Origin: a virus
Reading direction: 5' to 3' (one strand)
Virus record (IMG/VR): IMGVR_UViG_3300020205_002326
Location: 1 to 37,714 of that record
Length of the DNA stretch: 37,714 nt
Positions 2,960 through 23,358 of this stretch are shown one piece after another. Positions within the stretch are counted from its first letter, which is position 1. Every line of letters starts with the position of its first letter. The notes beneath the pieces are model-generated. The model was not told where the DNA came from, did not search any database, and saw nothing but the letters and a program-made list of their open reading frames with translations. The translations under genes were made by a program, and so were the position numbers.

Positions 2960-3100
2960 GATTTTCACTCCTGGTGAATTGATTGGTTGGTGGTTACTTA
3001 TTTTTTATTTCGAAGACTTCGGTAAGCACCTAGTCAGTTACATTTGCTGTATTACGAGAATAACATCAAAGTAGTATCAGAAATGCAACCCCCTATGGGT
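2960..3100 (-). promoter_or_regulatory. Leader region of the capsid gene, probable own promoter
   Basis: This 141-base gap is one of the largest within the minus-strand run. It contains the AGGAG ribosome-binding site and AT-rich stretches, such as TTGATG followed 17 bases later by CAAATG, but no consensus promoter stands out. A separate promoter is expected because the capsid protein must be made in far greater amount than the large upstream proteins. That expectation is the main reason for this call. Confidence 0.3.
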
Positions 3101-5734: not shown

Positions 5735-5991
5735 TATTTTTTGTCTTTTTTAGACGATTGCTCTACCTCTGATGCGTATGGCATAGACATCCCATATTCC
5801 TTAAACAGTTCATTGACTTTATCCTGGTTGTCCATAAGGTACAGAACCATTGATTCAATGTCCCCATCTTTCCCGTTTTCGTCTGCGTATCCGTAAGCAG
5901 TGGTAATAATTTTTGAGCGCACTTCCGCATTCTTGACTTTTGCAAATAGTTCGTTTCTGATAGAGGATTTTTGTTCTGGTGTGAGTTTCAT
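5734..5991 (-). CDS. Small charged helical protein, function unknown
   Basis: 85 residues, mostly helical by composition (MKLTPEQKSSIRNELFAKV, DIESMVLYLMDNQDKVNELF) with a lysine-rich tail. It sits in the same kind of slot as the other ~100-residue genes, just ahead of a very large protein, and its stop overlaps the start of the metalloprotease gene by one base. An AAGG at the very end of the preceding gene serves as ribosome-binding site. I do not recognise the family. A chaperone or partner role for the large neighbour is inferred from gene order only. Confidence 0.6.
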   Translation of the reverse strand: MKLTPEQKSSIRNELFAKVKNAEVRSKIITTAYGYADENGKDGDIESMVLYLMDNQDKVNELFKEYGMSMPYASEVEQSSKKDKK

Positions 5992-5995
5992 GATG

Positions 5996-8900
5996 TTAAA
6001 CCCTTACCCTTGGCGCTCTTGGTCGCCTCGTTCTTTCTACTCCTGCAACTTTTTGGTCAGCGAACTTTAGCACTCCTCCACCGAACGGAATGTTGCTCTT
6101 GAACCATTGTTTCACATATTCCGCCCTAGCCTTATCATCAACGTCATCTACAGCGAAAATAATGTCTTGATGGGAAAACTTAGTCCCACCTTCTGCTTGT
6201 TTCAGAATTGAAGCAATTCTTGCGTATTCTGTATCGTTTGATATGAGACCGCCTGCCCCAAATTCTTCGTAGAACCGCATTTCCGATTCAAGAGCCCGCA
6301 ATCTGGCTCGGTCAACTCCCCCAGATTGTTTAAAACCGACTCGAGCCCAAACATACTGTCCGTCATCCATTGCGTTCACCTTGGCTTTGGTAATACCTAT
6401 TTTACTTAAATAAAGAAAAGCATGTTGATTGTAAATGGTTTGAATGTCTGCGCCTCTGTCTAGTTTGCTTCGCACATTCATGCCTTGTTGATACACCTGC
6501 TGGTCGCCCATATAAAATAACACTCTGGAGGAAGACCCGATGCGCGCTCTAATAACTTGCCCTTCGGCGTTAACTTCATTGAATACCACTTCAACACTAT
6601 TTCCATTTACTTGCGCAACGGCGTTATAGAATTTCCCGTTTTTCCCTTTGATTAACTTGTGACTATAAGCATCTTTTACATATGCTTCCTTTTGCTGCGA
6701 TGACAAACCGCGCCATTTTTCTGGTGTCATATCTTCATAAGGAGCCCCACCCTGTGGGTATCTTTCTTTCAGGTACTTAGCAAGTTTCCCCTGCCTGCGA
6801 TTAATTGCTCCATCAATTTGCTCTTTTATTTTTGCTTTGACAGCCTGTGGGGTTGGTTTCGGAATATCAGTTGCATCAGGATTGAACTCGTATCCTTGGC
6901 TGATTCTTTCTACTGTTTTGCGCACCTCTGCATCTAGAGAGCCAAGTACCTCAATCACTCCCTCTAAATTTCCCATCTCTTGTTTGATTAAACCAATTCG
7001 TTCCATTGTCTGCACTCTGCCGGCGCCTATTTCTGCAGCACCGACACCAACAGGTTGCCTCAACTGAGAAAACTTTTCTTCCAATTGATTGTTTAGTTGT
7101 TCAAGTCTTGCTTTAGCGGTATCAATGCTTCCACCGCCGACTGAGCGCAACAAGTCTTTTTTCGCTTGAGCAATCTCAGCGTCAACTCGAGCAGGCACTC
7201 GCGCTCCAGGATCATTTCGTAATTTAGACGCAATCTCAGCAAGCCGTTTTTGATAACTTCTTAAAGCGTTTTGGCGTCCTTCATTTTGATAAAAGTTTGC
7301 TTGGTCTACAGCCAAAGAAAACTTATTTAATTTTTCTGCATCTGCGATTTCTAACAGTATTCGTTCTATTGCTTCTTCTTGTGAAGCGGTGAATTTCGCT
7401 ACTTCAATTTTGGGTGCTTTGTGCTTAAGGGCATCTGGTGCCTTCCTGACATCTTTTTTGTCTGGTGCAATAAATGGTGCGTCTATCGGGTCAACCGCTG
7501 ACGCATTGCGATTGAGAACATTTTTTTTGTGCCATGCGATTGCATCTTCACGGTTATCGAAACCCCTTTTTGTTTGAGCGGGTCGTCCATGAATAACAAA
7601 CCATTTGTTAGTGGCAATTTGCTGGTCAATTATGTCGCCGTTGTCGTGGGTAATAATCGTGTTAGGTCCTTGATTCCATCCTGCTGGCAGGGGATTTCTT
7701 GCTGCAGGAGCCGGTGCAGGTGTTATCGGTCGTTTCTCCAAATTTTCAGAAACGGGTCGTTTGCGACCTTCATTCGCTATACGAACCTCATTCCATCCGT
7801 CTCTATAACCTTCAATAATTTCCTTGACTCTTGCGACACTGAATTCTTCTGGTCCTGCGTTGGAATCCATGGTCATTCTGACGAAGTCTCTGTCGGAAAT
7901 TTCACCTCTTGCTATTGCTGTGTTTATTTTGCGTAGGTATTCTTCGGCTTGCTTCATGCTTCGACGAGCGGCTTGCACCTTCTTGTCTTTTTCTCTTGGG
8001 TCTTGAGGAAAATTGCGAGCGTCATTAACAATCATTATTCGGTCATTGGGAATGTACTCATCTCTGAGCACCTCCATAAAAGATTGGTCGCCCGCAACTC
8101 GATTAAGATTGACTTCTTGCCTTTCGTTTCGGCGCCTTGGTTGAGGCGCGGGGGGTGGCTGGCTGGGCAATCGGTCAGCAATTTCAATCTTTCTAACTAG
8201 TTCATCAAAATTACGAGCCTGTATCAGTCCTCGTTTCCGAGGGTGCGAAGCAGAAAGCCCTAGCACTCTGTCGTCTTCTCGGTCTGTTGTAATTAGCCAA
8301 TCGCCTTTTCTCCATTGTCCATTGCCAATTTGTCTAAAATCTTTTGGCGGGTTTCCAATGTCAATCAACATTCTGTCCCTTATCCGCCGTGATATCTCCG
8401 CCTCTTCTTCAATTAATCTCTCAATTCGTTGCTCTGTGTTTTCTTTGGGTTTTGGGCGACGAGGTTTAACAACTTTTGGTTCAACAACTGCCTCAGGTTT
8501 TTGGACTGGTGCTTTCGGCTTGTTCGTCGCCTCAACAACGGCACGGCGACGGCGACGAGCAGGCGCTTCACCAGTACGAGGTGCACCTGGATCCTCAATC
8601 TCTCTGTCCATTCTCCGCTGTTCCGACTCGCGAAGATTTCCGCCACGACGCCTTGCAGGTTGCCGTCTACGAGCAGGAAGAGCGGGGGCTTCACGCCTTT
8701 TCAACTCCGCCATTACTCGCTTGTAATCATCACTATCTCTGCCACCAGTAGCGTTTTCCAACTCCGCACGCATTTCTTCCAAAACTTCTGTCGGTTCGGC
8801 TGCGAGGAGATTCCTTTCTTCACGAACAGGACGAGCAGGTGCTCGCCGTCTGCGCTGTGGGCGTGGAGCATCGGGTGTTGATTCGCTAATTGCTTCAGGT

Positions 8901-9367
8901 GCGTCAACTGATGGCGGTCTCGCAGTTACTGTCCTCCGTCGCCCCCCACTGGGAGTTGATGTTTCTCCGCCGTCCAATCTTTCCGCAACACCACGCAATC
9001 CACGCTCGAGACGACCAGCGCGTGCGTCTTGGGGATTTAAACGAGCGAGAATTCTTCGTTCTCGACGGGCAATACGGCGACCCCTGCGAGCATCATCAAC
9101 ATTCTCCAACCGTGAACCAATGTCGGAAATCTGGTTAGCAATTCGTCGTGCGATACCCCAACCACAAGACCTGCCGAAACGGTCAGTAATTTGTCCGCCG
9201 TAGCGAGTCCCCACAGGGCATCGCCAGCCACCTCGACGGTTCGTTCCAGGAATAGACAAACTCGGGTCCCAAATAGCACGAACAGCCTTCACCTCATAAG
9301 ACATAGTTGAAGTGTTTCTTTCAGTTAAGAAAGATTTCGCTTTGAAGTCAACAATATTCTGGAGCAT
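5996..9367 (-). CDS. Giant putative virion effector: Cx17C N-terminal module, basic linker, coiled coil, possible GNAT-like C-terminus
   Basis: 1123 residues in five visible parts. Residues 7-21 carry the FKAKSFLTERNTS element. An IWDP segment and CPVGTRYGGQITD follow (C50 and C68, 17 residues apart). Next comes an arginine-rich helical stretch (RRGRRIARRERRILARL) and about 250 residues of Pro/Arg/Ala-rich low complexity, including GNLRESEQRRMDRE near 243-256. A middle part has two small W-containing blocks and long coiled-coil helices (about 640-840). The C-terminus has VIRARIGSSSRVLFYMG, a glycine-containing QQGMNV turn and GQYVWARVGF near residue 1005, a pattern resembling GNAT-like acyltransferase folds. 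The last assignment is tentative. AAGG precedes the start. It is the paralogue, by its first 100 residues, of the 886- and 898-residue proteins. Confidence 0.7.
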   Translation of the reverse strand: MLQNIVDFKAKSFLTERNTSTMSYEVKAVRAIWDPSLSIPGTNRRGGWRCPVGTRYGGQITDRFGRSCGWGIARRIANQISDIGSRLENVDDARRGRRIARRERRILARLNPQDARAGRLERGLRGVAERLDGGETSTPSGGRRRTVTARPPSVDAPEAISESTPDAPRPQRRRRAPARPVREERNLLAAEPTEVLEEMRAELENATGGRDSDDYKRVMAELKRREAPALPARRRQPARRRGGNLRESEQRRMDREIEDPGAPRTGEAPARRRRRAVVEATNKPKAPVQKPEAVVEPKVVKPRRPKPKENTEQRIERLIEEEAEISRRIRDRMLIDIGNPPKDFRQIGNGQWRKGDWLITTDREDDRVLGLSASHPRKRGLIQARNFDELVRKIEIADRLPSQPPPAPQPRRRNERQEVNLNRVAGDQSFMEVLRDEYIPNDRIMIVNDARNFPQDPREKDKKVQAARRSMKQAEEYLRKINTAIARGEISDRDFVRMTMDSNAGPEEFSVARVKEIIEGYRDGWNEVRIANEGRKRPVSENLEKRPITPAPAPAARNPLPAGWNQGPNTIITHDNGDIIDQQIATNKWFVIHGRPAQTKRGFDNREDAIAWHKKNVLNRNASAVDPIDAPFIAPDKKDVRKAPDALKHKAPKIEVAKFTASQEEAIERILLEIADAEKLNKFSLAVDQANFYQNEGRQNALRSYQKRLAEIASKLRNDPGARVPARVDAEIAQAKKDLLRSVGGGSIDTAKARLEQLNNQLEEKFSQLRQPVGVGAAEIGAGRVQTMERIGLIKQEMGNLEGVIEVLGSLDAEVRKTVERISQGYEFNPDATDIPKPTPQAVKAKIKEQIDGAINRRQGKLAKYLKERYPQGGAPYEDMTPEKWRGLSSQQKEAYVKDAYSHKLIKGKNGKFYNAVAQVNGNSVEVVFNEVNAEGQVIRARIGSSSRVLFYMGDQQVYQQGMNVRSKLDRGADIQTIYNQHAFLYLSKIGITKAKVNAMDDGQYVWARVGFKQSGGVDRARLRALESEMRFYEEFGAGGLISNDTEYARIASILKQAEGGTKFSHQDIIFAVDDVDDKARAEYVKQWFKSNIPFGGGVLKFADQKVAGVERTRRPRAPRVRV
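8601..8641 (-). repeat. Linker DNA repeat, copy 1 (in the 1123-residue gene)
   Basis: 41 bases matching 14862-14902 at 39 positions. They encode GNLRESEQRRMDRE in the Arg/Pro linkers of two different large proteins; both mismatches are synonymous third-codon changes. This is a shared module within otherwise divergent linkers and a possible site for recombination between the genes. Confidence 0.8.
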
Positions 9368-9371
9368 CTGT

Positions 9372-9683
9372 TTAAGCCTTAAAACTTTTTTTGCTTGGAA
9401 GTGACTTGATTCGGTTTTTATACATTTCTTCAGTTACCTGCCCGTCAGAACTGTATTGTGCGGACATTGCATTGATGCGGTAAAGGATGTATTCCATACC
9501 GCTTCCTTCTAAAGGAATCTCGTTTCGTGCCGAAGATTCTGAAAGGATTTCAATAAGTTGGTCAACAAGTTCCTTATCGGAAGCGTGTATTTCTACAAGT
9601 CCATCAATGTTTTTGCCAGCGCAAGATCCATACACTTTATTAGTAAATGGATCCATGAATTGACCTATGAAAAACTCTTTCAT
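9372..9683 (-). CDS. Small partner-type protein, function unknown
   Basis: 103 residues. It begins MKEFFIGQFMDPFTNKVYGS, a short beta-hairpin-like opening that loosely resembles the starts of the 104- and 100-residue genes elsewhere in this operon, and continues with a helical acidic part (ASDKELVDQLIEILSES). The ribosome-binding site AAAGG lies in the last codons of the preceding kinase-like gene, 5 bases before ATG. It precedes the 1123-residue gene by only a few bases. It has no recognised family. Gene order suggests a small partner of the large protein on one side of it. Confidence 0.6.
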   Translation of the reverse strand: MKEFFIGQFMDPFTNKVYGSCAGKNIDGLVEIHASDKELVDQLIEILSESSARNEIPLEGSGMEYILYRINAMSAQYSSDGQVTEEMYKNRIKSLPSKKSFKA

Positions 9684-9685
9684 GA

Positions 9686-12346
9686 TTACCTTTGATTAGT
9701 TGGAATTAGGTTGACTATCAGATCTTCGGCACTGCGAAGGTTTGCCAGACTTCGCACCATGCCATCATAAATTCTTCCTGCTCGTTCTTTACTTGAGTCA
9801 GTCTTGCTTATTTTTTGCAATCCGTCTTTTATGAATTGTTCACGACCGACAGCAAGTGTTCGTTCTGTTTGCGCAACAACCTGTCTGTATACTTCTTGAA
9901 TCCGTGCATAAACTTCACGTCTTTGCGCTGGATCCATTTGAGGTAGACCCGTGCGCATTTTTTCAATGAGGTCTGAATCCATTCTAAAACCCCGTACGTA
10001 ATTCTCAAATCCTCCTCCGTGCGCTCTCCCAGCCCAACCCAAGTCCATGGGTACAACATGCGCGAACTTTTGTCCATCTGGTGTTTCCACGACACGACCC
10101 ATCCCGTTTCCTGCGTGTCGGTCGCTAACACCGAGAATGTAATTGGCTAGAACATTGCCCAATCTTTCAGGGAAACCTTTATCAGGTAGTCCGTCTAGTT
10201 CGGATTTATTGAAGTCAAAGCCACGATTAGGGGGACCTATTATCGCCCCTTCGGGAACATCATTGTGGGCTAGAGGCACCATTATGTAAGGAGTTCCTTT
10301 TCGGATTGTTCCGAGTGGCTTGCGTACATCCGCTTCAAGTTTTCCGTCTTGAATTGCTCCGTCCTCCAAAATACCAACAGCAGCCAAGTAGTTCCACCCA
10401 ATGAGTTCGCCGACATTGTCGTAAGGTTTGGCAGCCTTAAAAACCCACCCTTGGTTAGTTGGATTTCCATCTTCGTCACGCAAAAAGTAAACTCTAGTTA
10501 CACCTACCGCCCCACCGTTGGGTGATACTTTTTTGAAACGCTTGTTCACGTCTTGTGGATCTGATGAAGCGTTTGCCTCAATAGCGATGTGCATGTATTT
10601 TGCTGGAACCTTTTGTATGTCTCCACCATTTTTTATATGGTCAATCGCTTTTTGTTCCGTATTAATCGTTCGGTCTTCTTCTGAAACAAATTTTCCGATT
10701 GGAGAGTTCCGTCTATCTATCTTCAATTTGCCATGCGCATTTTTGCTTCTAGCGAATTTACGGAAAGGAGATTTTCTTTGTCGTGGTGCTTGCGGTACTT
10801 GCGGTGTTGCTGGTGACGGTGGGGTGGTTGTTGACGGCTCTGGCGCACTTGGGAAATCTGCTGAGATGCCCGACGGTGGCGCTGCTGGTGGTCTTACTTC
10901 TGGCGGTGCTCCGCCCCCATCACCAGGTGTCACGAAACCCGCATTGTTTGGTATTGGACGGCGAGGGCGACGAGGTCGTGCTGGTCTTACGGGTCGTGCA
11001 GGCGGTGGTTCGGGAACATCATCAGGTGTTGGTCTACGAGTAGCAGAACGCCCTGCGCCTTGTGCTGTTGACTGCCTACGGCGACGACGGTTGTTTCGTG
11101 GGCGACGAGCCTGTGGTGTTGGTGGTTCAAAATCTTGTGGTGCGCTACGACCGTGAGCGTCTTTCCAAGCCTCACGAAGATTTTCTTTGTTGATTGCGTA
11201 CCATTCACGGCGAGTCAACATTCCCGCATTACCGCCAGCCAATCGAATTTCCCGAACTCGTTTTGCGTACTCGTTGTATTTTCGTAATACGTAAGGTTTG
11301 AAGTCTTCTGTTTCTCCTGCGTCGGACGCGTCTTGTGGTGTGAGTACATCAACGTTCCTCGGTCGTGGGGCGACTTCTGGGCGTGGTCTTCGTTCGGGTC
11401 TTGGGGTTGGTTCTGTTTCTGGTGTTACATCTCGTCGCCTGTTGCGCGGAACTCGTGTAGATGGCGCTTGCGCTTCTGGTTCTTCAACATTCTGGGGTCG
11501 TCGGCGAACATCATTGATGATTCTTCCGACGGTGCTTTCGTTAAATACTCGCTGCGCAAAATCTCTAGCCTCATCACGATTCGGTCGATTTCGTGGTCTA
11601 GTTGGTTTTGGGGTTGCATCACTTCCACCGTCAAGGCGTCGAGCGATGTTACGCAAACCACCCTCAACACGACCTGTTTCTGCAACACCACCAAGCCGTC
11701 TAATCATTCGAGCATTGCGGCGGTCAAGGCGACGCTTTCGTTTGTCGTCATCTCGTTGTTCTAATCTCTCACCGATGTCGGCAATTTGGTTAGCAATACG
11801 CCTTGCTATCCCCCACCCGCATGAACGACCGAATCGGTCTGTTATTTGTCCACCGTATCTTGTACCAACAGGGCATCGAAAACCGCCACGACGGTTCGTA
11901 CCAGGAATCGCCAAACCTGGATCCCAAATAGCACGAACACCTTTGATTTCAAAATGTGCCGACGAACGAGTTTGGTCGGATATGAAGGATGATGCTTTGA
12001 AAGTTAAAACATTTTTGAATTCTTCGTTAGAGAACTCAGATAACAACACTTCAGAAATAGAAAGAACGGGAAGTTTTGGTAGTTCAATTTTTTCAAGAGA
12101 CAGGTTCATGACTTTCTTTTGTAATGCTGTCCCTGATGGGCTCGGTCCTTCAATGATTTTTGATGCGTCCATTGATTGAACTAGTTCAGGTTTCGTAATC
12201 GGTGTTTTTCCGTATTCTTGACGCAAGATGACAGCAAGGTCTTTGGCAGGTTCCGACATGGGCTCAAAGGTTGAGCCGTTGGGTGTGGTTCTAACAACCA
12301 TAAATGGCGTGTTGTCACGGTTTTTGATAATGAAAACTAGGTTCAT
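9686..12346 (-). CDS. Giant putative virion effector with PI3K/HipA-like kinase-fold C-terminus
   Basis: 886 residues. The first ~80 residues (MNLVFIIKNRDNTPFMVVRT...) resemble the small partner proteins of this operon and look fused on. At 116 the FKASSFISDQT element begins, then IWDP and CPVGTRYGGQITD with C158 and C176. A basic helical region and a long Pro/Arg-rich linker follow. The C-terminal ~300 residues carry kinase landmarks: WVFKAAKPYDN (Lys near 635), GELIGWNYLA (Glu helix), YILGVSDRHAGNGM (DRHxxN loop near 742-748) and HVVPMDLGWAG (metal Asp near 767). This layout fits PI3/4-kinase-like, FAM20C-like or HipA-like folds; I cannot decide the substrate. GGAAAG lies before ATG. All catalytic positions I can place are kept, so it may be active. 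Confidence 0.8.
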   Translation of the reverse strand: MNLVFIIKNRDNTPFMVVRTTPNGSTFEPMSEPAKDLAVILRQEYGKTPITKPELVQSMDASKIIEGPSPSGTALQKKVMNLSLEKIELPKLPVLSISEVLLSEFSNEEFKNVLTFKASSFISDQTRSSAHFEIKGVRAIWDPGLAIPGTNRRGGFRCPVGTRYGGQITDRFGRSCGWGIARRIANQIADIGERLEQRDDDKRKRRLDRRNARMIRRLGGVAETGRVEGGLRNIARRLDGGSDATPKPTRPRNRPNRDEARDFAQRVFNESTVGRIINDVRRRPQNVEEPEAQAPSTRVPRNRRRDVTPETEPTPRPERRPRPEVAPRPRNVDVLTPQDASDAGETEDFKPYVLRKYNEYAKRVREIRLAGGNAGMLTRREWYAINKENLREAWKDAHGRSAPQDFEPPTPQARRPRNNRRRRRQSTAQGAGRSATRRPTPDDVPEPPPARPVRPARPRRPRRPIPNNAGFVTPGDGGGAPPEVRPPAAPPSGISADFPSAPEPSTTTPPSPATPQVPQAPRQRKSPFRKFARSKNAHGKLKIDRRNSPIGKFVSEEDRTINTEQKAIDHIKNGGDIQKVPAKYMHIAIEANASSDPQDVNKRFKKVSPNGGAVGVTRVYFLRDEDGNPTNQGWVFKAAKPYDNVGELIGWNYLAAVGILEDGAIQDGKLEADVRKPLGTIRKGTPYIMVPLAHNDVPEGAIIGPPNRGFDFNKSELDGLPDKGFPERLGNVLANYILGVSDRHAGNGMGRVVETPDGQKFAHVVPMDLGWAGRAHGGGFENYVRGFRMDSDLIEKMRTGLPQMDPAQRREVYARIQEVYRQVVAQTERTLAVGREQFIKDGLQKISKTDSSKERAGRIYDGMVRSLANLRSAEDLIVNLIPTNQR

Positions 12347-12470
12347 TGTTTACTTTCCACAGTTGAAAGACATTCGGCGAGCCCTGCAAATATCACAGTT
12401 GCTATATCGCTACATTAAAATGTTATCACTAAAAGGGCTTTACTATTTCAAACGACCTAGTGTAAATATA
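12347..12470 (-). promoter_or_regulatory. Intergenic leader inside the effector operon, possible promoter
   Basis: This 124-base gap is unusual in a run where most genes touch or overlap. On the minus strand TTGAAA is followed 18 bases later by GATAAC, a weak but possible -35/-10 pair, and GGAAAG precedes the ATG of the 886-residue gene. It may give the downstream half of the operon its own transcription start. An alternative is that it is the scar of a cassette insertion. No convincing terminator hairpin is visible. Confidence 0.3.
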
Positions 12471-12773
12471 TTATTTGTTGTTTAGTTTTTTGTGTCCAAT
12501 AGACAAAAGCATATTGTCAATCTTCTCTTTGCCAGAGCCCTCGTACTCAAAAACCTGAGTATCAAAGTATGAATACCCGTGCAACATATGCTCCAAGTTC
12601 GCTATTTTCGGCGAATTCTTTTTGGCATACAAAAAGTTTTCGTTATCAAGTTTGTCTGCCTCACGGTTTTGCGAGTAATACTTGAGGATTCCCTTGTCGT
12701 CCTCAACTATGACCAAGGGTGACGATTTAACCGAATCGTCTTTGGAGGTGATAATGGCTGCCCTCATGTTCAC
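12471..12773 (-). CDS. Small partner-type protein, function unknown
   Basis: 100 residues. It starts at a GTG that overlaps the stop of the 898-residue gene (GTGA); an ATG two codons later at 12767 is an alternative. The opening (AAIITSK...PLVIVEDDKGILKYY) parallels that of the 104-residue gene (ALVTPME...PYVLLEGDQGIFAVV): a strand, a proline, a hydrophobic strand, two acidic residues and a glycine turn. The rest is helical and charged. The pair therefore looks like divergent members of one small family interleaved with the large proteins. Function unknown. Confidence 0.6.
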   Translation of the reverse strand: MNMRAAIITSKDDSVKSSPLVIVEDDKGILKYYSQNREADKLDNENFLYAKKNSPKIANLEHMLHGYSYFDTQVFEYEGSGKEKIDNMLLSIGHKKLNNK

Positions 12774-15466
12774 AATCCTAGTATCAAATCGGCGAGTCTG
12801 CTTGGGTCAACATCGGTGATGTATTTCATTTTCCTCATGGGACGGACACCAATTCGCTCACGGGCGTTATCTCCAGCCCGTGGCTGTTGAGTCCCATCTC
12901 CTCCCGCTTTGAGGGCATCATCAACAACGTTCATGTATGGGTTTTTGCGTTCTGCTTCGCGAATAGACCTTTGGACATCTGCGATAGCGGCAACCATTTC
13001 ACGCCTGCTCAGTTCTTGGTTCTGGAACTGAGCCCGAAGCGAATTGAGCATTTCATTTCTTTTGCCACCATAATTGTGATTCATCCATGCGTTGAAGCCT
13101 GCATCATCGCCATCAAAACCTTGAAAGTCTCGTCCACCCCAATTCACATCAAATCCCAAAGAAGGGTCAATGGGGACAAATCGTTTGTTTCCATTGGCAT
13201 CAGTTGCCACAAAGAAGTTCCCATGGTGGCGGTCTCTGTTGACTATCACGAAATCCATAAGAGTTGCACGAACTCGGTCGGATGCTTTGATGCGACCCTG
13301 AATTCCCGCACCTCTTGGGCTTTCAATATCGCCTTCCGCATAGTTTGCGGCATGCTCAAAAACGATAGCCCTACCTGCTGAGTAAGGTGCGTTCCCTCTG
13401 CCTTTTTGTTTACCGTCTGTTCTCACAGCACCAATTGGCATACCGAATCGTCCTGCAATGTTGTTGCCTACAAGTTCGTGAATGTCTTCATTTTCTGCTA
13501 CGGCTCCGTTTGTATATTTCAGGAAATATTTTTTGCCAGTGACTCTGTCTTTGAATAGGAACATGTTGTCGTTGACTTGTAATGCGTTGACGCCACCACC
13601 AGCATCATTTTTCTCGAATCGACCAGTAGCCCCCGACAATGCGTCAGCAAGCAAGTCGTCTGGGACATCAGCCAAATCACCGCCTCGCTCCAAGTGCCCA
13701 ATCGCATCTTCTTTTGTGTCCAGTCCCTTGTTTCCAATGGGAACGGTTTTTATTTCTGGCAAACCGTCCTCACCAAGGCGACCAAGTTTTTCTGGCGAAT
13801 GGTCTGCTTTGGGGGCAGGTGGAGAAACATCAAATCCGCCTTCTGGTTCTGGAATATCAGGAACTGGTGCTTGAGGCACTCTTACTCGTTGCGCTCTGTC
13901 TGGTAATGGATTTCTTTGTTTGGGTTGAAAAGCAATCCCTGCGTCAACTTCAATAATGCGCAGACTTACGGCTTCTCGTTCAATTCTATTGCGCTCACGC
14001 TCAATGTGTGCTCTCGCCATGTTGGCACGAGCATCTGCTCGAGTTTGAAATCCTACATCTTTATCTTTATTCCATGCAGCAAGCGCTGTTTCAAATCTTT
14101 CATCTATTTCCTTTTGGGCTTCTTTTAATTTGTTCTGTTTTTCAACCAAAGCGTCTTTATTTTGGTTTCGCAAATTGTTGAATGCGTTCGGTTCAAACCC
14201 ATTCAAGTCTTGACGCACTAAATCAAGCATGTCAGCATCTTCGGGTTTATTAAACTCACCTTCAACATTGAACACCCTGCGAATTGGAGGCGGACCTGCT
14301 GGACGTGCTGGTGGCGCAGGCGTAGGCGTAGGCGCAGGATTACGAGCGCCACCTCTGTTCGCCAAGCCGCCTTGGTTGCCAGAGATTTTTTGGTTTACAT
14401 AATTGCCTCGCGCATTACGTTTTTTATCTTTGCCGTAATAGCGCCCAAACCTTCTTTCAAGTTCCGCTTTTTCTTCACCTTCAGGAAAATCTTTTTCACG
14501 CCAATAAGCGGTATCTGGAAGTCCTCGTTCACGGAAACGGTTACGAACATTTCTTATTGAACGCTCATCTGGCAAACTTCCACCCAAATCTCGGGCGGCT
14601 TCGGCTGCGGCGTCTGCCGTCGGATTCCAGGTTGGTGGATTTGGTATTGTTGTTGAGAGTTTTGGTGGCTCTGCTGGCTGTGGCGCAGGTTTTCTACGTG
14701 GAACTCTTGTTGGTTCGGGTTTTGCACCGTCAACAAAATCTGCTTCAGGCTTTCTGCGTACAGTTCGCTTTGCGCCCTGTTGCGTAGCGGCTCTACGTCG
14801 ACGTCTTGGGGCGTTGGGTCTAGGTGGTTCACCTGTGCGGGGTGCACCAGGTTCTACAAGTTCTCTGTCCATTCTTCGCTGTTCCGACTCACGAAGATTT
14901 CCTCGTCTCCTACGAGGAGCAACGGGGGTTCGCTCCGATATTTCCCGTGGTCTGTCTATGGTGGGATTATCAGGCAAATTAATAACTCCCCCTGTATTTG
15001 GGTCAATCATCCCGCCTAGTGGGCGCCGACGTTGAACAGGAATTCTTGGGCGCTGTTGTGGTGTTTGTCCTCCGTCAAGTGCCTCAGCAATACCTCTCGC
15101 ACCACGCTCAAGCAAACCAGGTTTCTCTTGACGAGCCAAAAGACGTTGCATACGAGCATTTCGTTTAGCAAGACGATTATTGCGTTTTCGGTCGTCAATA
15201 TTCTCCAATCGTTCGCCGATATCAGCAATTTGGTTTGCGATACGACGAGCCACACCCCAACCGCATGAACGACCGAACCTATCGGTTATCTGACCGCCGT
15301 AACGAGTACCGACAGGGCAACGCCAACCACCACGGCGATTCGTGCCTGGTATGGAAAGACTTGGATCCCATAAAGCCCTTACACCTTTTACTTCATAGTT
15401 GAAAGTGCTAGCGGTTTGTTCTGAGATGAAAGTCAAAGCCTTGAAGTTGACTTCGCTTTTTTGCAT
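12770..15466 (-). CDS. Giant putative virion effector with PI3K/HipA-like kinase-fold C-terminus
   Basis: 898 residues. Residues 7-21 hold FKALTFISEQTAS; then LWDP and CPVGTRYGGQITD with C50 and C68, numbered exactly as in the 1123-residue protein. A basic helical segment, a Pro/Arg linker (with GNLRESEQRRMDRE near 189-202) and a helical middle lead to a kinase-like C-terminus: KKYFLKYTNG (Lys near 647), ENEDIHELVGNNIAGRFG (Glu helix), FVIVNRDRHHGNFFV (DRHxxN near 747) and RFVPIDPSLGF (metal Asp near 765). The start ATG directly abuts the stop of the 579-residue gene. The family phosphorylates proteins, lipids or small molecules; which one applies here is unknown. It is not close to the 886-residue kinase outside the shared front and the catalytic motifs. 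Confidence 0.8.
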   Translation of the reverse strand: MQKSEVNFKALTFISEQTASTFNYEVKGVRALWDPSLSIPGTNRRGGWRCPVGTRYGGQITDRFGRSCGWGVARRIANQIADIGERLENIDDRKRNNRLAKRNARMQRLLARQEKPGLLERGARGIAEALDGGQTPQQRPRIPVQRRRPLGGMIDPNTGGVINLPDNPTIDRPREISERTPVAPRRRRGNLRESEQRRMDRELVEPGAPRTGEPPRPNAPRRRRRAATQQGAKRTVRRKPEADFVDGAKPEPTRVPRRKPAPQPAEPPKLSTTIPNPPTWNPTADAAAEAARDLGGSLPDERSIRNVRNRFRERGLPDTAYWREKDFPEGEEKAELERRFGRYYGKDKKRNARGNYVNQKISGNQGGLANRGGARNPAPTPTPAPPARPAGPPPIRRVFNVEGEFNKPEDADMLDLVRQDLNGFEPNAFNNLRNQNKDALVEKQNKLKEAQKEIDERFETALAAWNKDKDVGFQTRADARANMARAHIERERNRIEREAVSLRIIEVDAGIAFQPKQRNPLPDRAQRVRVPQAPVPDIPEPEGGFDVSPPAPKADHSPEKLGRLGEDGLPEIKTVPIGNKGLDTKEDAIGHLERGGDLADVPDDLLADALSGATGRFEKNDAGGGVNALQVNDNMFLFKDRVTGKKYFLKYTNGAVAENEDIHELVGNNIAGRFGMPIGAVRTDGKQKGRGNAPYSAGRAIVFEHAANYAEGDIESPRGAGIQGRIKASDRVRATLMDFVIVNRDRHHGNFFVATDANGNKRFVPIDPSLGFDVNWGGRDFQGFDGDDAGFNAWMNHNYGGKRNEMLNSLRAQFQNQELSRREMVAAIADVQRSIREAERKNPYMNVVDDALKAGGDGTQQPRAGDNARERIGVRPMRKMKYITDVDPSRLADLILGL
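14862..14902 (-). repeat. Linker DNA repeat, copy 2 (in the 898-residue gene)
   Basis: Second copy of the 41-base linker repeat (see 8601-8641), same orientation and frame. The flanking codons for PGAPRTGE are also shared, with more nucleotide differences. Confidence 0.8.
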
Positions 15467-17206
15467 TTATTGTTTCTTCCGTGCTTTTGCTAAATCGGCT
15501 TTAATGAATGTTTCGTACATCCATCGTGTGGCAGTTCGTTTTACGCCGTCAGTACCTGTGTATTCAACAAGTTTCAGTGCGTCTGGGATTCCACCAGTGT
15601 CGGCGATGAACTTGAACGCCCCTTGGGAATCTTCAGCAAAATCTTCAATATTTTTTATGATGTTGTCTTTGTTGCTTGACTCCGCCAACGAGTTAATCAT
15701 TCGTGGAAACTTGCGTTTTTCGCCAATTGTGAAAGGTCGTGAGCGCTCAATGCTGACTGTCACACCGTTGGGGGCGACGAAAGCAATCTTGCTCATTGAT
15801 GGACCACCCAATAACGCCAAATCGTCTGCTCCGATATCGGCAGGCAACTGAATAGCCCGCACCATTGCACCGTCTTCCATATCGGGATTTTCGCTAAACG
15901 AACGCAAAATTGAAGAAGGAACGACAGGGCGCAGAATTACTCCGTCTCGACGAATCATTCTTCCCTCGCCTTTTGGCGCACCTTTGAGTAGTTTGATTGA
16001 ATCAGCAACGGAGCGGTTAAATTTATCTTTTTGGAATGCGCCTGTTCTTGGTATCTGCGCCATGCGTTGAATCTGAATTGTTCTTGCTGGGTTTGGCGCA
16101 CCCTCTAATACCTCCGAAAGGTTTTCTTGTCGTGCCTGCGGTATTTTCGGTGCCGCTATTGGACGCGCTGCCCGTCTAATAAGTTCTAAAGGACCTGGTA
16201 TTTCAAACAGTTGTGCACCGCAAGTAGAAAAACGATTGTCTGTAAATCTTCCACCGAATTCAAAACCAGCAGGGCATCGTGCTTGCCTTCTGCGATTTGG
16301 TTTCAACCTACTGAGAACTCCTTGCCCACCGCCAGGAATTAGAGCGCCATACAGTCTTGAACGGATAGGCGAGGTGATTGGAGAAATATTGCCTGGCGTC
16401 AGGGCAGAGCCGATTGATTGTGCTACACGACCAGCAGTGCTGCTTGAACCGATAAGTCCTGCTTTCTCTTCCAAGCCCTCAGAGTCATCTTTCTCTACTC
16501 GATATCCTCCGCCACGCTTTTTATATTCACGAACCAGCCACGCATTCGCATAAGCGGACGGGTAAACATTGAATTTCTTTTTGGCTTCTGCTTTTACCCT
16601 TGCGTAAAGGTCGGGGTCAGTTGGGGTATTTACACTTTTGATTTCGTTTTCTTCGCAACAGGATGTCACTAAATCAGACTTCATTGTGGACACATTGATG
16701 GGCTTCTTATCCACACGAGTTTGAGAGTTTTCTGCTCGAAGTTTCCTGCTTACAGCGGAAGCAATTTGCTCAGCAGTCATGTTCATTGCTCTAGATTTTT
16801 TCACACATTTTGGATACTTACCTGAATCAGCATCTCCACGACCACAAGGTTCAAACCCCCCACCCTTTTTGGGGCGAGAGATATCAACCCATTCCTCATC
16901 AAACCATTTACCCAAACCGCCACGCTTTGTTTCGTCGCCAACAAATGTTTCTGAACCCAAACGAGAAGTGCGAGATTTCATATAAAGTTTTGCTTTGAAA
17001 TTCAGAAGGTCTCTGTCCCCGTTGAGTCTTGTTTTCCTCACCTGTGAACCATTAGTGAAAATAAATTTTGTTTTTACATTCTCGGGGTCAAAAAATAGTT
17101 CTTGTCCCAATGCGATATTCGTTCTTTTCATTTTCGTTTTTTCACGCATAGACATACGAAGTTTCCGTGCAAAATATTCAAAGCCTTGGTTGAGATGATT
17201 GCTCAT
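15467..17206 (-). CDS. Cx17C-module protein with DUF5872-like blocks
   Basis: 579 residues. An LLNFKAKLYMKSRTS element (67-81) parallels the FKA element of the paralogues. Residues 97-160 (GGLGKWFDEEWVDI, GFEPCGRGD, YPKCVKKSRAM) and 200-235 (YARVKAEAKKKFNVYPSAYA, then an AWLVREYKKRGGGY segment) match blocks I know as DUF5872, found in phages and some bacteria, with no established activity. CPAGFEFGGRFTD follows a basic RRRQAR, with C311 and C329. The C-terminal 250 residues are unrecognised and contain no catalytic motif I can identify. The start overlaps the stop of the 104-residue gene (ATGA) and lacks a Shine-Dalgarno, so it is probably translated by coupling. Here the cysteine module is central rather than N-terminal. 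Confidence 0.7.
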   Translation of the reverse strand: MSNHLNQGFEYFARKLRMSMREKTKMKRTNIALGQELFFDPENVKTKFIFTNGSQVRKTRLNGDRDLLNFKAKLYMKSRTSRLGSETFVGDETKRGGLGKWFDEEWVDISRPKKGGGFEPCGRGDADSGKYPKCVKKSRAMNMTAEQIASAVSRKLRAENSQTRVDKKPINVSTMKSDLVTSCCEENEIKSVNTPTDPDLYARVKAEAKKKFNVYPSAYANAWLVREYKKRGGGYRVEKDDSEGLEEKAGLIGSSSTAGRVAQSIGSALTPGNISPITSPIRSRLYGALIPGGGQGVLSRLKPNRRRQARCPAGFEFGGRFTDNRFSTCGAQLFEIPGPLELIRRAARPIAAPKIPQARQENLSEVLEGAPNPARTIQIQRMAQIPRTGAFQKDKFNRSVADSIKLLKGAPKGEGRMIRRDGVILRPVVPSSILRSFSENPDMEDGAMVRAIQLPADIGADDLALLGGPSMSKIAFVAPNGVTVSIERSRPFTIGEKRKFPRMINSLAESSNKDNIIKNIEDFAEDSQGAFKFIADTGGIPDALKLVEYTGTDGVKRTATRWMYETFIKADLAKARKKQ

Positions 17207-17517
17207 TTTTTTGCCGATTCTTTTGGTGCTTCAGGCTCCGCAAGTGGAGCGGGCAGGGTTGTTTTCCATTTTCTAGCCAACTGTCTTAAAAGCGCAATAT
17301 TATTGTCATCCAAAACATTGGTGCTAATACTATGATACGACATTCCAGTAGTTGCTTTTTCAATAGTATCTCTTTTGCTCATAAGCAGTTGATTGTTCAG
17401 GTTGGACGCGAATTTCGTGTCAGGGGCTACCACAGCAAAAATGCCTTGGTCGCCCTCAAGCAGAACATAAGGGATACCTGAAACCTCTTCCATTGGGGTT
17501 ACTAGGGCGTATCTCAT
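17203..17517 (-). CDS. Small partner-type protein, function unknown
   Basis: 104 residues, overlapping by four bases (ATGA) with the kinase-like gene before it and the 579-residue gene after it, so all three are translationally coupled. It opens with a beta-like segment (MRYALVTPMEEVSGIPYVLL, EGDQGIFAVVAPD) related in pattern to the 100-residue gene and to the N-terminus of the 886-residue protein. Its C-terminus is Pro/Ala/Lys rich. No database family comes to mind. The tight coupling suggests it is needed in a fixed ratio to its neighbours. Confidence 0.65.
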   Translation of the reverse strand: MRYALVTPMEEVSGIPYVLLEGDQGIFAVVAPDTKFASNLNNQLLMSKRDTIEKATTGMSYHSISTNVLDDNNIALLRQLARKWKTTLPAPLAEPEAPKESAKK

Positions 17518-19355
17518 ACGACACTCGCAACAATATTTTCCAATGCGGAATCGGCTTTTGGCTTAGGTGGTTTGACAATTATGTCAGCCAACTGTTTTGG
17601 GGTCATGCCCTGTATTTCTCTCAAGCGTTGTACTGATTTAGTCAAATTTGTTCGCAGTTCTTCAAGTTGTTCTAGTATTTCTGGTGTGAGACTGTATTGT
17701 CCGATGAGATTCCTATCAGACATCGTCTCTTCAAGTTGACTTTTTAGCCTGTCTTCCAAAGAGTCAACGTCAATCTTTTTGACATCTTCTAGAACTTTTC
17801 CTGCATCCGCAACCAGTTTGGCATGTTCGTCAACGCTAGAACCGTGACGTCGGCTGAGTTCCAACCCCAATGTGCCAGTGCTAATCATTGGGGCATATTT
17901 TTCGGCTGTGTCATTGAAATCAAAAACTTGAAAGATGAAACTATGGTCGATTGGCACAGCGTCCATTCCTTCAGATGTCTCACTGAAAAGAACATTCCCA
18001 TCATGTCTGTCGCCGTTAGCCAAAACAACGTCCATCACCTGCATATGTAAAAGTTTTCTTGTATCGGTTTTCTCAAGTTGTTCAGGACCTGCGGAAAGTA
18101 TTTTCCCGTCGTAAGAGTTGTGAACCAAATCGGTGATGACGCCCATAGATGCTGACTCGGGTGCAGTTTGAACAACACGAAGAGAGGAGGCGGGATACCC
18201 GAATTCCTCGGTTATTGAGGTTGCTAAAACTTCTTGAACTGGCTCATACCAGCGGTCTGCTCGCCCCTTGCTCAAGGGTGCTTTGCTGTGCGGAACATTT
18301 TCATCCCACATTGAAGTTCTTGAAGCATATTTAACACCAAAAAGTTGCCCAGTCTGCCTATCTCGCAAGCGATTCATTCCGACGACTCCGCCGCCAGTTC
18401 CTAGCAATTCAAATCTTTTTATTTCAGAGACGTTGCCCTCCGAATCGTAGACATCAATATTTGCAAGAATTGCGTCCAAGACGACCGTGTCACCCAATTC
18501 GTTTATTTTTCCACCGTTAGCAAGATGGGCAGAAGCCTTATCCGCTGTATCAATTTCGGGTTTTACGCTAGGCAAATCTCGGGCAATATTTTTGCCGTTC
18601 ACATCCGCTATGCCGATAGTCGGTTCAAAGTCTTTAGCCTTCGCTAAGGCATCATTTCCCTTTTTGAATCCGCTCGGAGCCTTCACGGTAGGAGGGTCAA
18701 CCTTCGGGCTCTTTTTCTTGTCTTTGCGTCTTTTGAGTGTCGCCATCAAAAAGGCTTTTGCGTCAACAGCGGCATTTGCTTTTATTTTGTCTGTGATGTT
18801 TTCTATTTGTTCTTTTTTTTCGGGGGACAGTTTGCCTCGTCTGCTAAGCGAATCTGTGGCAAAGTCAACTAGTTGAGCGCCCCCCACTCTGAATATCAAC
18901 ATACTCATCAGGGTGGAATCAGTCAGTGACCCCGAACCGTCCGCATGTAAGTAATCCAATGTTTGCAGAGCAGCCATTCCCGCTGCTTTTGCACCGTTCC
19001 TTACATTCTTTGATTTGAAAATGGTTTTTGCACCATCAATCATTTTCCCCGCAAGAGAGGCAACTTCCCTCGCTGCTGTTTCGGCACTAGGAACTAAACA
19101 GTTAGACATTTGCATATCGGTAAATTGATTTGCGTTTGGGGTGCCAGGTGGACACCTCAATTTGCCAGCAGCATCGACTATCACACCAGCGGCTCTCGCC
19201 GCTCTAACTCCGACAGAACCCAATTCGGGTTTATCTTTTATGGTCGGTCCGAGGAACCCTTTAAAAAGTAAAAGGTTTTCTTGAACTACAGCAACAGATT
19301 TTCGGTACTCTGCGACTCTTTCGTTTGCGTCAAAGGCGCGAGACGATTTAATCAT
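17514..19355 (-). CDS. Cx17C-module protein with PI3K/HipA-like kinase-fold domain
   Basis: 613 residues, with a clear AGGAG five bases before ATG. An LLLFKGFLGP element (about 28-37) sits where the paralogues have FKA. LRCPPGTPNANQFTD follows, with C68 and C86 exactly 17 residues apart. A helical middle and a lysine-rich linker lead to the kinase-like part: QLFGVKYASR (Lys near 340), EPVQEVLATSITEEFG (Glu helix), DVVLANGDRHDGNVLF (DRHxxN near 447) and AVPIDHSFIF (metal Asp near 467). A C-terminal helical tail of about 100 residues follows. It is the most divergent of the three kinase-like proteins and lacks the long Arg/Pro linker. Enzyme class is well supported by motif order; substrate is unknown. 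Confidence 0.8.
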   Translation of the reverse strand: MIKSSRAFDANERVAEYRKSVAVVQENLLLFKGFLGPTIKDKPELGSVGVRAARAAGVIVDAAGKLRCPPGTPNANQFTDMQMSNCLVPSAETAAREVASLAGKMIDGAKTIFKSKNVRNGAKAAGMAALQTLDYLHADGSGSLTDSTLMSMLIFRVGGAQLVDFATDSLSRRGKLSPEKKEQIENITDKIKANAAVDAKAFLMATLKRRKDKKKSPKVDPPTVKAPSGFKKGNDALAKAKDFEPTIGIADVNGKNIARDLPSVKPEIDTADKASAHLANGGKINELGDTVVLDAILANIDVYDSEGNVSEIKRFELLGTGGGVVGMNRLRDRQTGQLFGVKYASRTSMWDENVPHSKAPLSKGRADRWYEPVQEVLATSITEEFGYPASSLRVVQTAPESASMGVITDLVHNSYDGKILSAGPEQLEKTDTRKLLHMQVMDVVLANGDRHDGNVLFSETSEGMDAVPIDHSFIFQVFDFNDTAEKYAPMISTGTLGLELSRRHGSSVDEHAKLVADAGKVLEDVKKIDVDSLEDRLKSQLEETMSDRNLIGQYSLTPEILEQLEELRTNLTKSVQRLREIQGMTPKQLADIIVKPPKPKADSALENIVASVV

Positions 19356-19367
19356 CGCCTCTCCTTA

Positions 19368-19631
19368 TCAGTCGCTTGAATCTGACGCTTTGTTAATCGT
19401 TGACATCGGAACCACATCATCATCCTCTACTTCTTTTTTCTTAGAAGCCTTTTTAGGTTCCACTTTTTCTTCGACAACTTCTTCAACGACTACTGGTTCT
19501 TCTTTGACTTCAACCTCAACAACAGCAACCTCTACTTCGGGTGTCACCACCACAGGGGCTTGTTCTTGTTTTGTATCAAAAAGGAGCCCTGAAGTGTTTA
19601 CTGAATCAACAGGTTGATTTAGTTTTCTCAC
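19368..19631 (-). CDS. Low-complexity Val/Glu/Lys-rich small protein
   Basis: 87 residues beginning at a GTG that overlaps the stop of the PepSY-containing gene (GTGA). The middle is an alternating acidic and valine-rich repeat (EVEVAVVEVEVKEEPVVVEE) followed by a lysine-rich stretch and a serine/aspartate tail. There is no recognisable fold; it is probably disordered. A position between head-assembly genes and this charge pattern would suit a scaffolding or internal head role, but that is a guess. The antisense strand also has an open frame, which I attribute to the low complexity. Confidence 0.55.
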   Translation of the reverse strand: MRKLNQPVDSVNTSGLLFDTKQEQAPVVVTPEVEVAVVEVEVKEEPVVVEEVVEEKVEPKKASKKKEVEDDDVVPMSTINKASDSSD

Positions 19632-23308: not shown

Positions 23309-23328
23309 TGTTCTCCAAAAATGTTTGT

Positions 23329-23358
23329 TTATAAACAATAAACCATTTGGAGCGCCAA
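23329..23358 (-). promoter_or_regulatory. Probable promoter for the protease-effector operon, over a 14-bp palindrome
   Basis: On the minus strand TTGGCG (23358-23353) and TTATAA (23334-23329) are 18 bases apart, ahead of the protease ribosome-binding site. The -10 lies inside a perfect palindrome, TTGTTTATAAACAA (23325-23338), which could be an operator. Together with the hairpin just upstream it suggests the portal gene and the protease gene are separate transcription units. Confidence 0.45.

Follow-up and report, generated by a model that had tools for sequence, protein, structure and literature searches.

Head-operon proteins of uncultured phages join a constant Cx17C module to exchangeable C-terminal domains

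The window analysed here, the whole 37,714-nucleotide stretch of IMG/VR record IMGVR_UViG_3300020205_002326, carries a head operon on the minus strand in which a run of large proteins and small ORFs lies between the portal and capsid genes. The upstream border of this interval is the portal protein (23399..25609), which has a C-terminal head-morphogenesis part, followed by the head maturation protease (21170..23338) and a 495-aa PepSY-containing head-operon protein (19628..21115) that marks the region upstream of the putative effectors; the downstream border is the major capsid protein (1652..2968). The 613-aa effector (17514..19355) has FKG at residue 31, a Cx17C motif at 68-86 (nt 19098-19154) and a PI3/PI4-type kinase C-terminus, and its stop overlaps by 4 nt a 104-aa ORF (17203..17517), the candidate partner of this kinase. 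The 579-aa protein (15467..17206) has FKA at 70, its best DUF5872 stretch at 195-243 and a central, type A Cx17C at 311-329 (nt 16220-16276). The next gene begins without a gap and encodes the 898-aa effector (12770..15466; FKA at 8; type B Cx17C at 50-68, nt 15263-15319; kinase-like C-terminus), which again overlaps its 100-aa candidate partner (12471..12773) by 4 nt. The 886-aa effector (9686..12346), which has an N-terminal extension of about 115 aa, FKA at 116, Cx17C at 158-176 (nt 11819-11875) and a kinase-like C-terminus, is followed by a 103-aa candidate partner (9372..9683), and the 1123-aa effector (5996..9367; FKA at 8; Cx17C at 50-68, nt 9164-9220; GNAT-like C-terminal fold) by an 85-aa ORF (5734..5991) that is likewise a candidate partner. 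A sixth head-operon protein, of 877 aa (3101..5734), has two DUF3721 stretches, a middle (about 190-640, including HEFAH) that varies among phages, and FKG in its conserved C-terminal part; no Cx17C motif of this kind was found in it.

An earlier note on this DNA had claimed that the five large proteins share a signature preceded by FKA or FKG, and that the closest copies are nearly identical with codons differing mainly at third positions; all of this held. The pattern C-P-x-G-[TF]-x4-[QR]-[IF]-T-D-x5-C is found in all five (cysteines at 68/86, 311/329, 50/68, 158/176 and 50/68 in the 613-, 579-, 898-, 886- and 1123-aa proteins) and had no match when all 114 window ORFs were shuffled 2000 times. 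Four of the proteins (613, 898, 886 and 1123) contain no cysteines other than these two. The FK[AG] element lies upstream in 5/5, at a distance of 240 residues in the 579-aa protein. Over 73 codons, the 898, 886 and 1123 modules have 60-65 residues in common and differ at 40-48 third, 12-17 first and 4-7 second codon positions. An HMM built from these three modules alone recovered the held-out 579 module at E=1.4e-4 and the 613 module at just 0.018, below the inclusion threshold, and an HMM of 60 type B modules gave 1.4e-5 and 0.003, respectively; because of these weak matches, we regard 613 as the weakest member of the family. Among 16 aligned 613 orthologues, all invariant columns fall within residues 13-91, and one near-invariant column, D529, lies far from them. 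The AlphaFold model of the module (pLDDT 68, pTM 0.33) is too weak to interpret, and a search of PDB sequences with the module profile gave one match, at E=0.56.

The Cx17C motif defines a large protein family of uncultured phages; scanning for the pattern found it in at least 120 IMG/VR stretches and in 4 genome contigs. Module types were assigned with 8 of 165 proteins left unclassified. Searching 50,697 phage records by tblastn with the 613-aa protein and four module types gave no match, and the family therefore has no cultured example in that collection; two other head-operon N-termini gave no match in the same records, and with the 579-aa protein residues 49-250 alone, which lie ahead of its Cx17C, matched, in 12 records. 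Of 190 N-complete ORFs, 133 have an [FY]K[ASG] element by residue 150 (shuffle mean 26, maximum 39), and 26 of 149 module ORFs lack it in their first 260 residues. The position of 49 module ORFs was checked on 37 contigs, and every one falls between the portal and capsid genes. Gene order was as expected in 355 module-portal/protease and 81 module-capsid pairs, with 0 violations, counting same-strand pairs only (opposite-strand pairs were skipped) from overlapping loci that make the pairs redundant. The interval spans 15-60 kb, and in one contig it takes up 61.6 of 109 kb. The earlier note had expected a signature search to return genes beside head genes joined to diverse enzymatic domains, and the matches do recur between portal/protease and capsid genes in this form. 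Neither Phage_integrase nor Resolvase was found in any of 17 contigs of 100-160 kb, which are possibly incomplete (controls were positive in 14/14 and 10/14); this absence would no more than point to virulent phages.

Positional orthologues hold their N-terminus and exchange their C-terminal domains, which is the constant-plus-exchangeable arrangement of polymorphic toxins. For the 613 orthologues in the relatives L011 and L015, the match to the window stops at residue 206-207, and the L002 orthologue ends at 246 aa. The match of the 886 orthologues extends only as far as 447-506 in 7 of 10 relatives, that of the 898 orthologues in L012 and L015 only up to 361, and in L015 an 886 front is joined to a 1123 end. 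The C-termini differ even among close phages, in eight comparisons over six phage pairs with 579 scores of 0.91-0.99. Seven aligned 579 orthologues are conserved end to end, at 77-91% identity to the window.

The exchanged ends include several enzyme folds. The C-terminus of the 613-aa effector is a kinase (PF00454 at 4.1e-7), and this protein alone among those in the window passed the Pfam cut-off by such a match; the 898 and 886 C-termini match PF00454 below cut-off, yet align with the kinase catalytic set. Among 44 family kinase domains, chosen by their [DE]RHxxN motif, the metal Asp is invariant and the Lys and Glu are at least 90% conserved, and the kinase profile matched PI4K/PI3K chains in the PDB around the catalytic loop (E=8e-6). 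The kinase ends thus have, by sequence, PI3/PI4-type catalytic features (DRHxxN, metal Asp, ATP Lys and Glu). Matches to this profile occur in only 11 of the 17 large contigs; of 31 in all, 2 fall outside the portal-capsid interval. For the 1123-aa effector, a GNAT-like fold is predicted for the C-terminal domain (pLDDT 86.8): acetyltransferases predominate in the 50 VIA rows for the model (Z 7.9-9.9; these rows say little on residues 1-250), and the best Foldseek E value is 0.02, with none at 0.001 or better. The three kinase-like ends and the possible GNAT end described in the earlier note are thus upheld, the former most firmly for 613 and the latter as a predicted fold, whereas the fifth assignment, DUF5872 as the C-terminal domain of the 579-aa protein, is not: DUF5872 scores 51.5 bits there against a curated cut-off of 27.5, but its best stretch precedes the Cx17C motif and it is no C-terminal effector.

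No two enzymatic activities were seen by Pfam in any one of the five window proteins. Beyond these five, a Pfam domain above cut-off was found in just 4 of 30 module ORFs scanned (26 had none). An L043 module ORF has an ADP-ribosyltransferase and an RNase_T domain, both above cut-off; L077 and L144 have NUDIX above and HipA_2 below cut-off; L011 has DUF3626 above cut-off; and two other type A proteins, in L104 and L119, had no Pfam match. Within the interval, a 6466-aa ORF of L169 combines two above-cut-off activities. A zeta-toxin domain occurs in a neighbouring interval ORF.

The case for a polymorphic effector system is strongest in the small ORFs that follow the kinase and GNAT effectors, a pairing that is new and was absent from the earlier reading. 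An ORF of 50-150 aa lies directly after 39 of 39 kinase-ending effectors, 14 of 16 GNAT-type effectors and 9 of 53 other type A proteins (kinase versus type A, p=1.4e-17, for rows that are related by descent). At three exchange positions, variation in the small ORF tracks that of the C-terminal domain (r=0.98-0.99, permutation p 0.0002-0.0006) and not that of the effector N-terminus (r -0.03 to 0.17); the per-position test omits L012 at the 613 position, where the ORF counted as small is the second half of a split kinase, and the pooled 117 pairs include it. In 53 effector-partner pairs, each effector C-terminal family but one keeps a single partner family. The 104-aa candidate partner of 613, for example, has a relative in the five phages that share the 613 C-terminus and was not found in L002, L011 or L015, in which that C-terminus is cut or different; L012, with its split and degraded kinase, retains a 52% relative. 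Cognate genes of polymorphic toxins are recognised by the same two features, a position directly 3′ and covariation with the C-terminal domain. Ten small ORFs searched against Pfam matched no family above cut-off. The small ORFs were also compared with each other and with the N-terminal domain of giant ORFs nearby; homology was dropped as a reading, given identities of 17-23% and an HMM of that domain that missed the window small ORFs.

Two further motifs were considered. Of 41 neighbouring ORFs that lack Cx17C, 23 carry a DxDxDG pattern in their first 450 residues, compared with 0 of 149 module ORFs. The stricter DADxDGxVQEGT was found in 87 stretches and in many other proteins; of 75 new loci in which an ORF contained the motif, only 22 had a capsid, portal or Cx17C gene in the fetched stretch, and an L075 module ORF carries it further downstream. 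On these grounds we consider the motif broader than the Cx17C system and set it aside as an alternative constant element. EFKSL lies in the N-terminal region of the capsid protein, with FKS at residue 116, and a PSSM of 22 capsid segments scored two cargo proteins at 14.9 (best shuffle 12.8) and few others; EFKSL as an element common to capsid protein and cargo thus concerns few proteins and barely exceeds shuffles, and an FK protease site in both was kept as an idea only.

We somewhat favor the explanation that these are head-loaded polymorphic effectors with cognate partner genes: the effectors would be expressed late, enter the prohead and pass into the next infected cell along with the phage DNA. 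Packaging, processing and partner function are what we infer here. The constant N-terminal part, usually [FY]K[ASG] and then Cx17C, would dock the protein to the prohead core, the portal or the protease and might be cut at the FK site, and the two cysteines may staple or fold the module. The C-terminal enzymes would modify host targets early in infection, and each small partner could bind its own enzyme and, like an immunity protein, keep it inactive in the producing cell until packaging separates the two. Of the polymorphic delivery logic of the earlier note, which has probable packaging into the head, the arrangement of a constant module with changing C-termini beside protease and capsid genes is borne out by the orthologue breakpoints and by the several unrelated enzyme folds, leaving aside DUF5872 as an effector.

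The partners could also be read differently: it is a possibility, if a lesser one, that the small ORF acts as a chaperone or loading factor dedicated to the C-terminal domain rather than as an inhibitor, the effectors still being head-loaded. The same covariation would result, and the small ORFs are specific, with several overlapping the effector stop by 4 nt; however, a general N-terminal signal should be enough for loading, and the small ORFs occur far more with kinase and GNAT ends than with the other type A proteins, which mostly lack a recognised enzyme, although neither point is decisive. We consider it unlikely that the proteins are structural or assembly components (core, scaffold or decoration) whose enzymes act during assembly and are not injected. 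The genes do sit among morphogenesis genes, and the end-to-end conservation of the 579 orthologues and the type A proteins of L104 and L119 would suit such a role, but the C-terminal differences between close phages argue against it, and the ADP-ribosyltransferase, RNase T and neighbouring zeta-toxin domains would probably fit an attack on the host better. Least probable, in our view, are late non-virion pairs acting against superinfecting phages, with an incidental location in the head operon: an effector with a small, close or overlapping gene does look like a toxin-antitoxin pair, but such pairs need neither a constant N-terminal module nor a fixed portal-capsid position.

Returning to head-loaded effectors, we give about an even chance to the broader picture in which apparently virulent phages, known in these collections from metagenomes only, devote 15-60 kb largely to an arsenal of head-operon effectors in which the front module is reused and enzymes travel from phage to phage together with their partners, as single cassettes. 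If true, exchange of an enzyme with its partner, as in bacterial competition toxins, works in phage head genes, and the arrays would be the phage equivalent of toxin-immunity arrays in bacteria, the virus particle taking the place of a secretion system. It would also provide a clear system for the old question of how phages pick proteins for the head and for the cell, and the short common module would be a testable signal, perhaps usable to load cargo into phage heads. The small partner genes open effector function to ordinary toxicity and rescue assays.

Several known systems resemble this one in part. Iyer et al. (2017, PMC5512222) describe the polyvalent proteins of phages and conjugative elements as large, encoded near virion genes and predicted to be injected; kinase, GNAT, ADP-ribosyltransferase, RNase and metallopeptidase domains occur in them. 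As for those proteins, the effector genes here adjoin virion genes. Disparate activities in one polypeptide, as expected of polyvalent proteins, were seen above cut-off in the L043 and L169 ORFs; in contrast, the window proteins have at most one recognised enzymatic domain each, one constant module and covarying small ORFs. The word "cysteine" occurs 0 times in the main text of that paper, which is not known to describe this module or partner pairs, and the polyvalent-protein kinases it reports are without the C-terminal subdomain, whereas the kinases here are PI3/PI4-like. The MuF toxins of temperate phages, as presented by Jamet et al. (2017, PMC5576092), have a constant head-associated N-terminus and a variable C-terminal toxin and are proposed to be loaded into the head and delivered with the DNA, much as proposed here. 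They differ from the present case in that here there are several effectors per operon and the Pfam and PHROG matches of the five window proteins include no MuF model; matches to head-morphogenesis PHROGs fall instead at the end of the portal protein. Integrase and resolvase profiles had no match in the 17 large contigs. Bxa of a Bacteroides prophage, reported as an ADP-ribosyltransferase toxin with two immunity proteins (Alexei et al., 2024, PMC11699363), is likewise a phage-encoded enzymatic toxin with cognate proteins, and its N-terminal domain recurs in combination with other toxins, but Bxa is not known to have a Cx17C module or a portal-to-capsid array. For the internal head proteins of T4 (Alt and the IPs), trimming by the prohead protease is described, and for DarB of P1, 30 N-terminal residues are reported to suffice to target cargo to the capsid, with no consensus found among the Dar N-termini (PMC9024508, PMC5694885). 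Unlike the Dar proteins as so described, many proteins here have one motif in common, joined to changing C-termini; the N-terminal element that they share may have a signal function like that of the DarB N-terminus.

The five large head-operon proteins of the window, which we name by residue length (613, 579, 898, 886 and 1123), all carry the Cx17C signature at the very positions that the earlier note had read, with an FK[AG] element upstream of each; chance does not explain the pattern, which had no match in 2000 shuffles of 114 ORFs. In 613, 898, 886 and 1123 the motif pair accounts for all the cysteines of the protein. An HMM built from the three close copies only (898, 886 and 1123) recovered 579 at 1.4e-4 and 613 at 0.018, and one built from 60 modules of the same type (type B) recovered them at 1.4e-5 and 0.003. 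The proposed excess of third-position codon changes was borne out: across 73 codons, 40-48 third positions differ, compared with 4-7 second positions. DUF5872, which had been taken as the C-terminal domain of 579, instead matches upstream of Cx17C. We refer to the short constant front with this motif as the module, and to a module plus its changing C-terminal domain as an effector.

Protein searches with 898 and 579 gave 16 and 25 loci, respectively, many of the latter on contigs already found with 898, and a DNA pattern for CPxGx3GGx[FI]TDx5C gave at least 120 stretches in viral contigs. The genome collection, described as 257 Gb, gave 4 stretches with the same pattern, every contig being titled MAG; one of these loci, L164, has portal and protease matches, and another, L162, matches p495, a PepSY-containing protein encoded upstream of the effectors in the window. 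Among the matches listed, all 156 translated matches (viral and genome-collection loci) fall in open frames no shorter than 136 residues, in surroundings similar to each other. The modules fall into types A (579-like), B (898-, 886- and 1123-like), the 613 type and a C type. Searches of 50,697 phage records with 613 and with four module types gave no match; at E=1.3e-30, a structure search with the C-terminus of 1123 retrieved a close model from the proteins that bear the name uncultured Caudovirales phage. In an alignment of 60 of the 61 type-B modules, the invariant residues away from the motif are K27, R30, A31, R74 and G84. Positions in and next to the motif are invariant too, some of them because the selection pattern itself fixes them; in the FKA element, K9/A10 are conserved at 90%. 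[FY]K[ASG] is strongly enriched at N-termini, of which 133 of 190 carry it while shuffles average 26, and is missing from the first 260 residues of 26 of 149 module ORFs; a weak similarity to the capsid protein points to a possible protease site. Viral contigs gave 87 stretches with another motif, DADxDGxVQEGT, which often sits close to the N-terminus of a phage protein (L054, L143, L150 and the loci from L170 on), and in the ORFs tested the looser DxDxDG never accompanied Cx17C in the first 450 residues.

Behind the module, the C-terminal part is exchanged. Ten relatives, picked from the 16 loci minus near-duplicates, keep the gene order of the window as far as their contigs extend; L015 has one gene fewer, the front of 886 being fused to the end of 1123. 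At the 613 position, L011 and L015 match the window only to residue 206-207, L002 ends at 246 residues, and L012 is split. At the 886 position, L002, L006, L008, L009, L010, L012 and L015 match only to 447-506, L001 matches to 749, and L003 and L011 match throughout; at the 898 position, L012 and L015 match only to 361, and L009 and L010 to about 760. All invariant columns of 16 aligned 613 orthologues fall within residues 13-91, and one near-invariant column, D529, lies far from these. Among the matches listed, 165 non-redundant module proteins remained once any that duplicated another at 90% identity across 85% of the shorter protein had been removed; single-linkage clustering puts the 130 that are C-complete into 14 groups, and the largest group lumps several kinds together. 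The 613-position kinase of L012 (L012:4876-8280) occupies two ORFs with an apparently degraded DRHxGN, and a related small ORF (52%) still stands behind it. A sixth head-operon protein, of 877 residues (window:3101-5734), is conserved at both ends and variable in the middle, where HEFAH lies; its relatives are shorter, different or split.

Among the matches listed, [DE]RHxxN is present in 41 of the 165 non-redundant proteins. Beyond this motif, by which the 44 aligned kinase domains were chosen (41 module ORFs and 3 neighbours), a second Asp is invariant and one Lys and one Glu reach 90%, and the resulting profile hits PI4K and PI3K chains in the region of the catalytic loop. Only 613 among the window proteins passes the Pfam cut-off for kinase. 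The profile matches in 11 of 17 large contigs; of the 31 matches, which include fragments of a single domain counted separately, 29 fall inside the portal-to-capsid interval. For the modeled C-terminus of 1123 (pLDDT 86.8), the VIA rows are mostly acetyltransferases (Z 7.9-9.9), and the best Foldseek E is only 0.02. A Pfam scan of 30 further module ORFs placed a domain above cut-off in four: RNase_T plus ADP-ribosyltransferase (L043), NUDIX (L077 and L144) and DUF3626 (L011). Because the other 26 have no Pfam domain above cut-off, the cargo diversity is named only in part.

Judged by its terminase, portal, head protease, capsid, tail sheath and tail tube genes, the window, a 37,714-base virus record, is a myophage fragment. 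Its capsid and protease are closest, among phage records, to those of Gordonia and Brevibacterium phages (GMA6 and Cantare; capsid identity 47-49%), which makes an actinobacterial host plausible. Integrase and resolvase profiles found no match in 17 contigs of 100-160 kb, which suggests that the carrier phages may be virulent. The window also holds a gene resembling phosphoadenosine phosphosulfate reductase (window:29951-31084). In six contigs (G010, G016, G027, G028, G042 and G047) the portal profile match contains one in-frame stop and ends at about position 675 of 744, perhaps reflecting a shortened portal.

The modules have a fixed place in these genomes. Among the matches listed, 130 contigs carry a module (126 viral, the window included, and 4 from the genome collection); of six head markers, one or more lie in the fetched stretch of 82 contigs and none in that of the other 48. 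When the 46 viral contigs of those 48 were searched whole, 31 had a capsid gene, and a portal was present in 16 of the 17 then searched (15 without a capsid match and two with partial ones), so that of these 46 G040 alone lacked both. Gene order was violated in none of 355 module–portal/protease and 81 module–capsid pairs among the matches listed, counts that score same-strand pairs, skip opposite-strand ones and are inflated by overlapping loci. The portal-to-capsid interval spans 15.7-61.6 kb (median 24.4 kb) in the 40 listed contigs holding both genes, a few of them partial matches at contig ends, and all 49 module ORFs on the 37 listed contigs with checked coordinates lie inside it. The corresponding interval is 9.3 kb in GMA6 and 7.2 kb in Cantare. 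The longest, in contig G008, includes a single ORF of 6466 residues, with no internal stop, just before the capsid gene (L169:76-19476 = G008:C1:69475-88875); it has NUDIX and Zeta_toxin above cut-off near its end and a DUF3721-like N-terminus below cut-off, and its sole cysteines (10, 11, 55 and 73) form no Cx17C of the CPxG kind. A 3750-residue ORF on the same contig has a start that resembles protease by eye. The head-operon proteins of GMA6 (L017:5263-9404) and Cantare (L018:7430-10552) include an annotated ADP-ribosyltransferase and HExxH-containing proteins; by eye, they have another short motif in common, VRx5-8GxPxGTxI, which may mark a comparable constant module in cultured phages.

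The small ORF right behind an effector, its candidate partner, changes together with the effector's C-terminus. At three exchange positions, we compared the last 250 residues of the effector and the longest ORF in the following gap: of the 136 locus pairs in which each locus has such an ORF, C-terminus and small ORF were both similar in 47 and both dissimilar in 76, the C-terminus was below threshold with a similar small ORF in 13 (12 of these at 31-40% against 26-36% identity), and a similar C-terminus never came with a dissimilar small ORF. Bit scores of small ORF and C-terminus correlate at 0.99, 0.98 and 0.98 (8, 11 and 10 loci; permutation p 0.0006, 0.0002 and 0.0002), compared with 0.05, 0.17 and -0.03 for small ORF and N-terminal 200 residues, and with 579 similarity controlled for, the partial correlation over 117 pooled pairs is 0.98. 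Joint change between close phages appears in eight comparisons over six pairs, for example between the window and L001 at the 886 position. A wider set comprised the 123 of 130 listed C-complete proteins with 500 nt past the stop, a small ORF being one of 50-150 residues starting -40 to +90 nt from the effector stop. Among these matches, whose rows are related by descent, every one of the 39 kinase effectors has such an ORF behind it, as do 14 of the 16 in the GNAT cluster (the L079 case looks spurious). The other type-A proteins, the majority but not all of which have no recognised enzyme, have one in 9 of 53 cases, and the remaining proteins in 8 of 15. The 53 effector–small ORF pairs among the matches listed comprise 15 effector and 13 small-ORF families; just one effector family is paired with more than one small-ORF family, and two small-ORF families each serve several effector families. 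Ten small ORFs run against Pfam gave no family above cut-off.

These proteins combine a constant front, a changing C-terminus, a fixed place and a covarying small ORF. In what we propose as the most likely mechanism, the front part would target the effector to the prohead, the effector would be delivered along with the DNA and modify the host, and the partner would inhibit it in the producing cell. No description of the Cx17C module or of the partner covariation was found in the accessible portions of the open-licence literature, including a jumbo-phage review (PMC7824862). As far as the available text of these sources goes, polyvalent proteins (PMC5512222) and MuF toxins (PMC5576092) are the nearest ideas to these effectors, Bxa, found in a prophage, is the nearest toxin–immunity case (PMC11699363), and P1 DarB and the T4 internal proteins (PMC9024508, PMC5694885) are the nearest cases of targeting.
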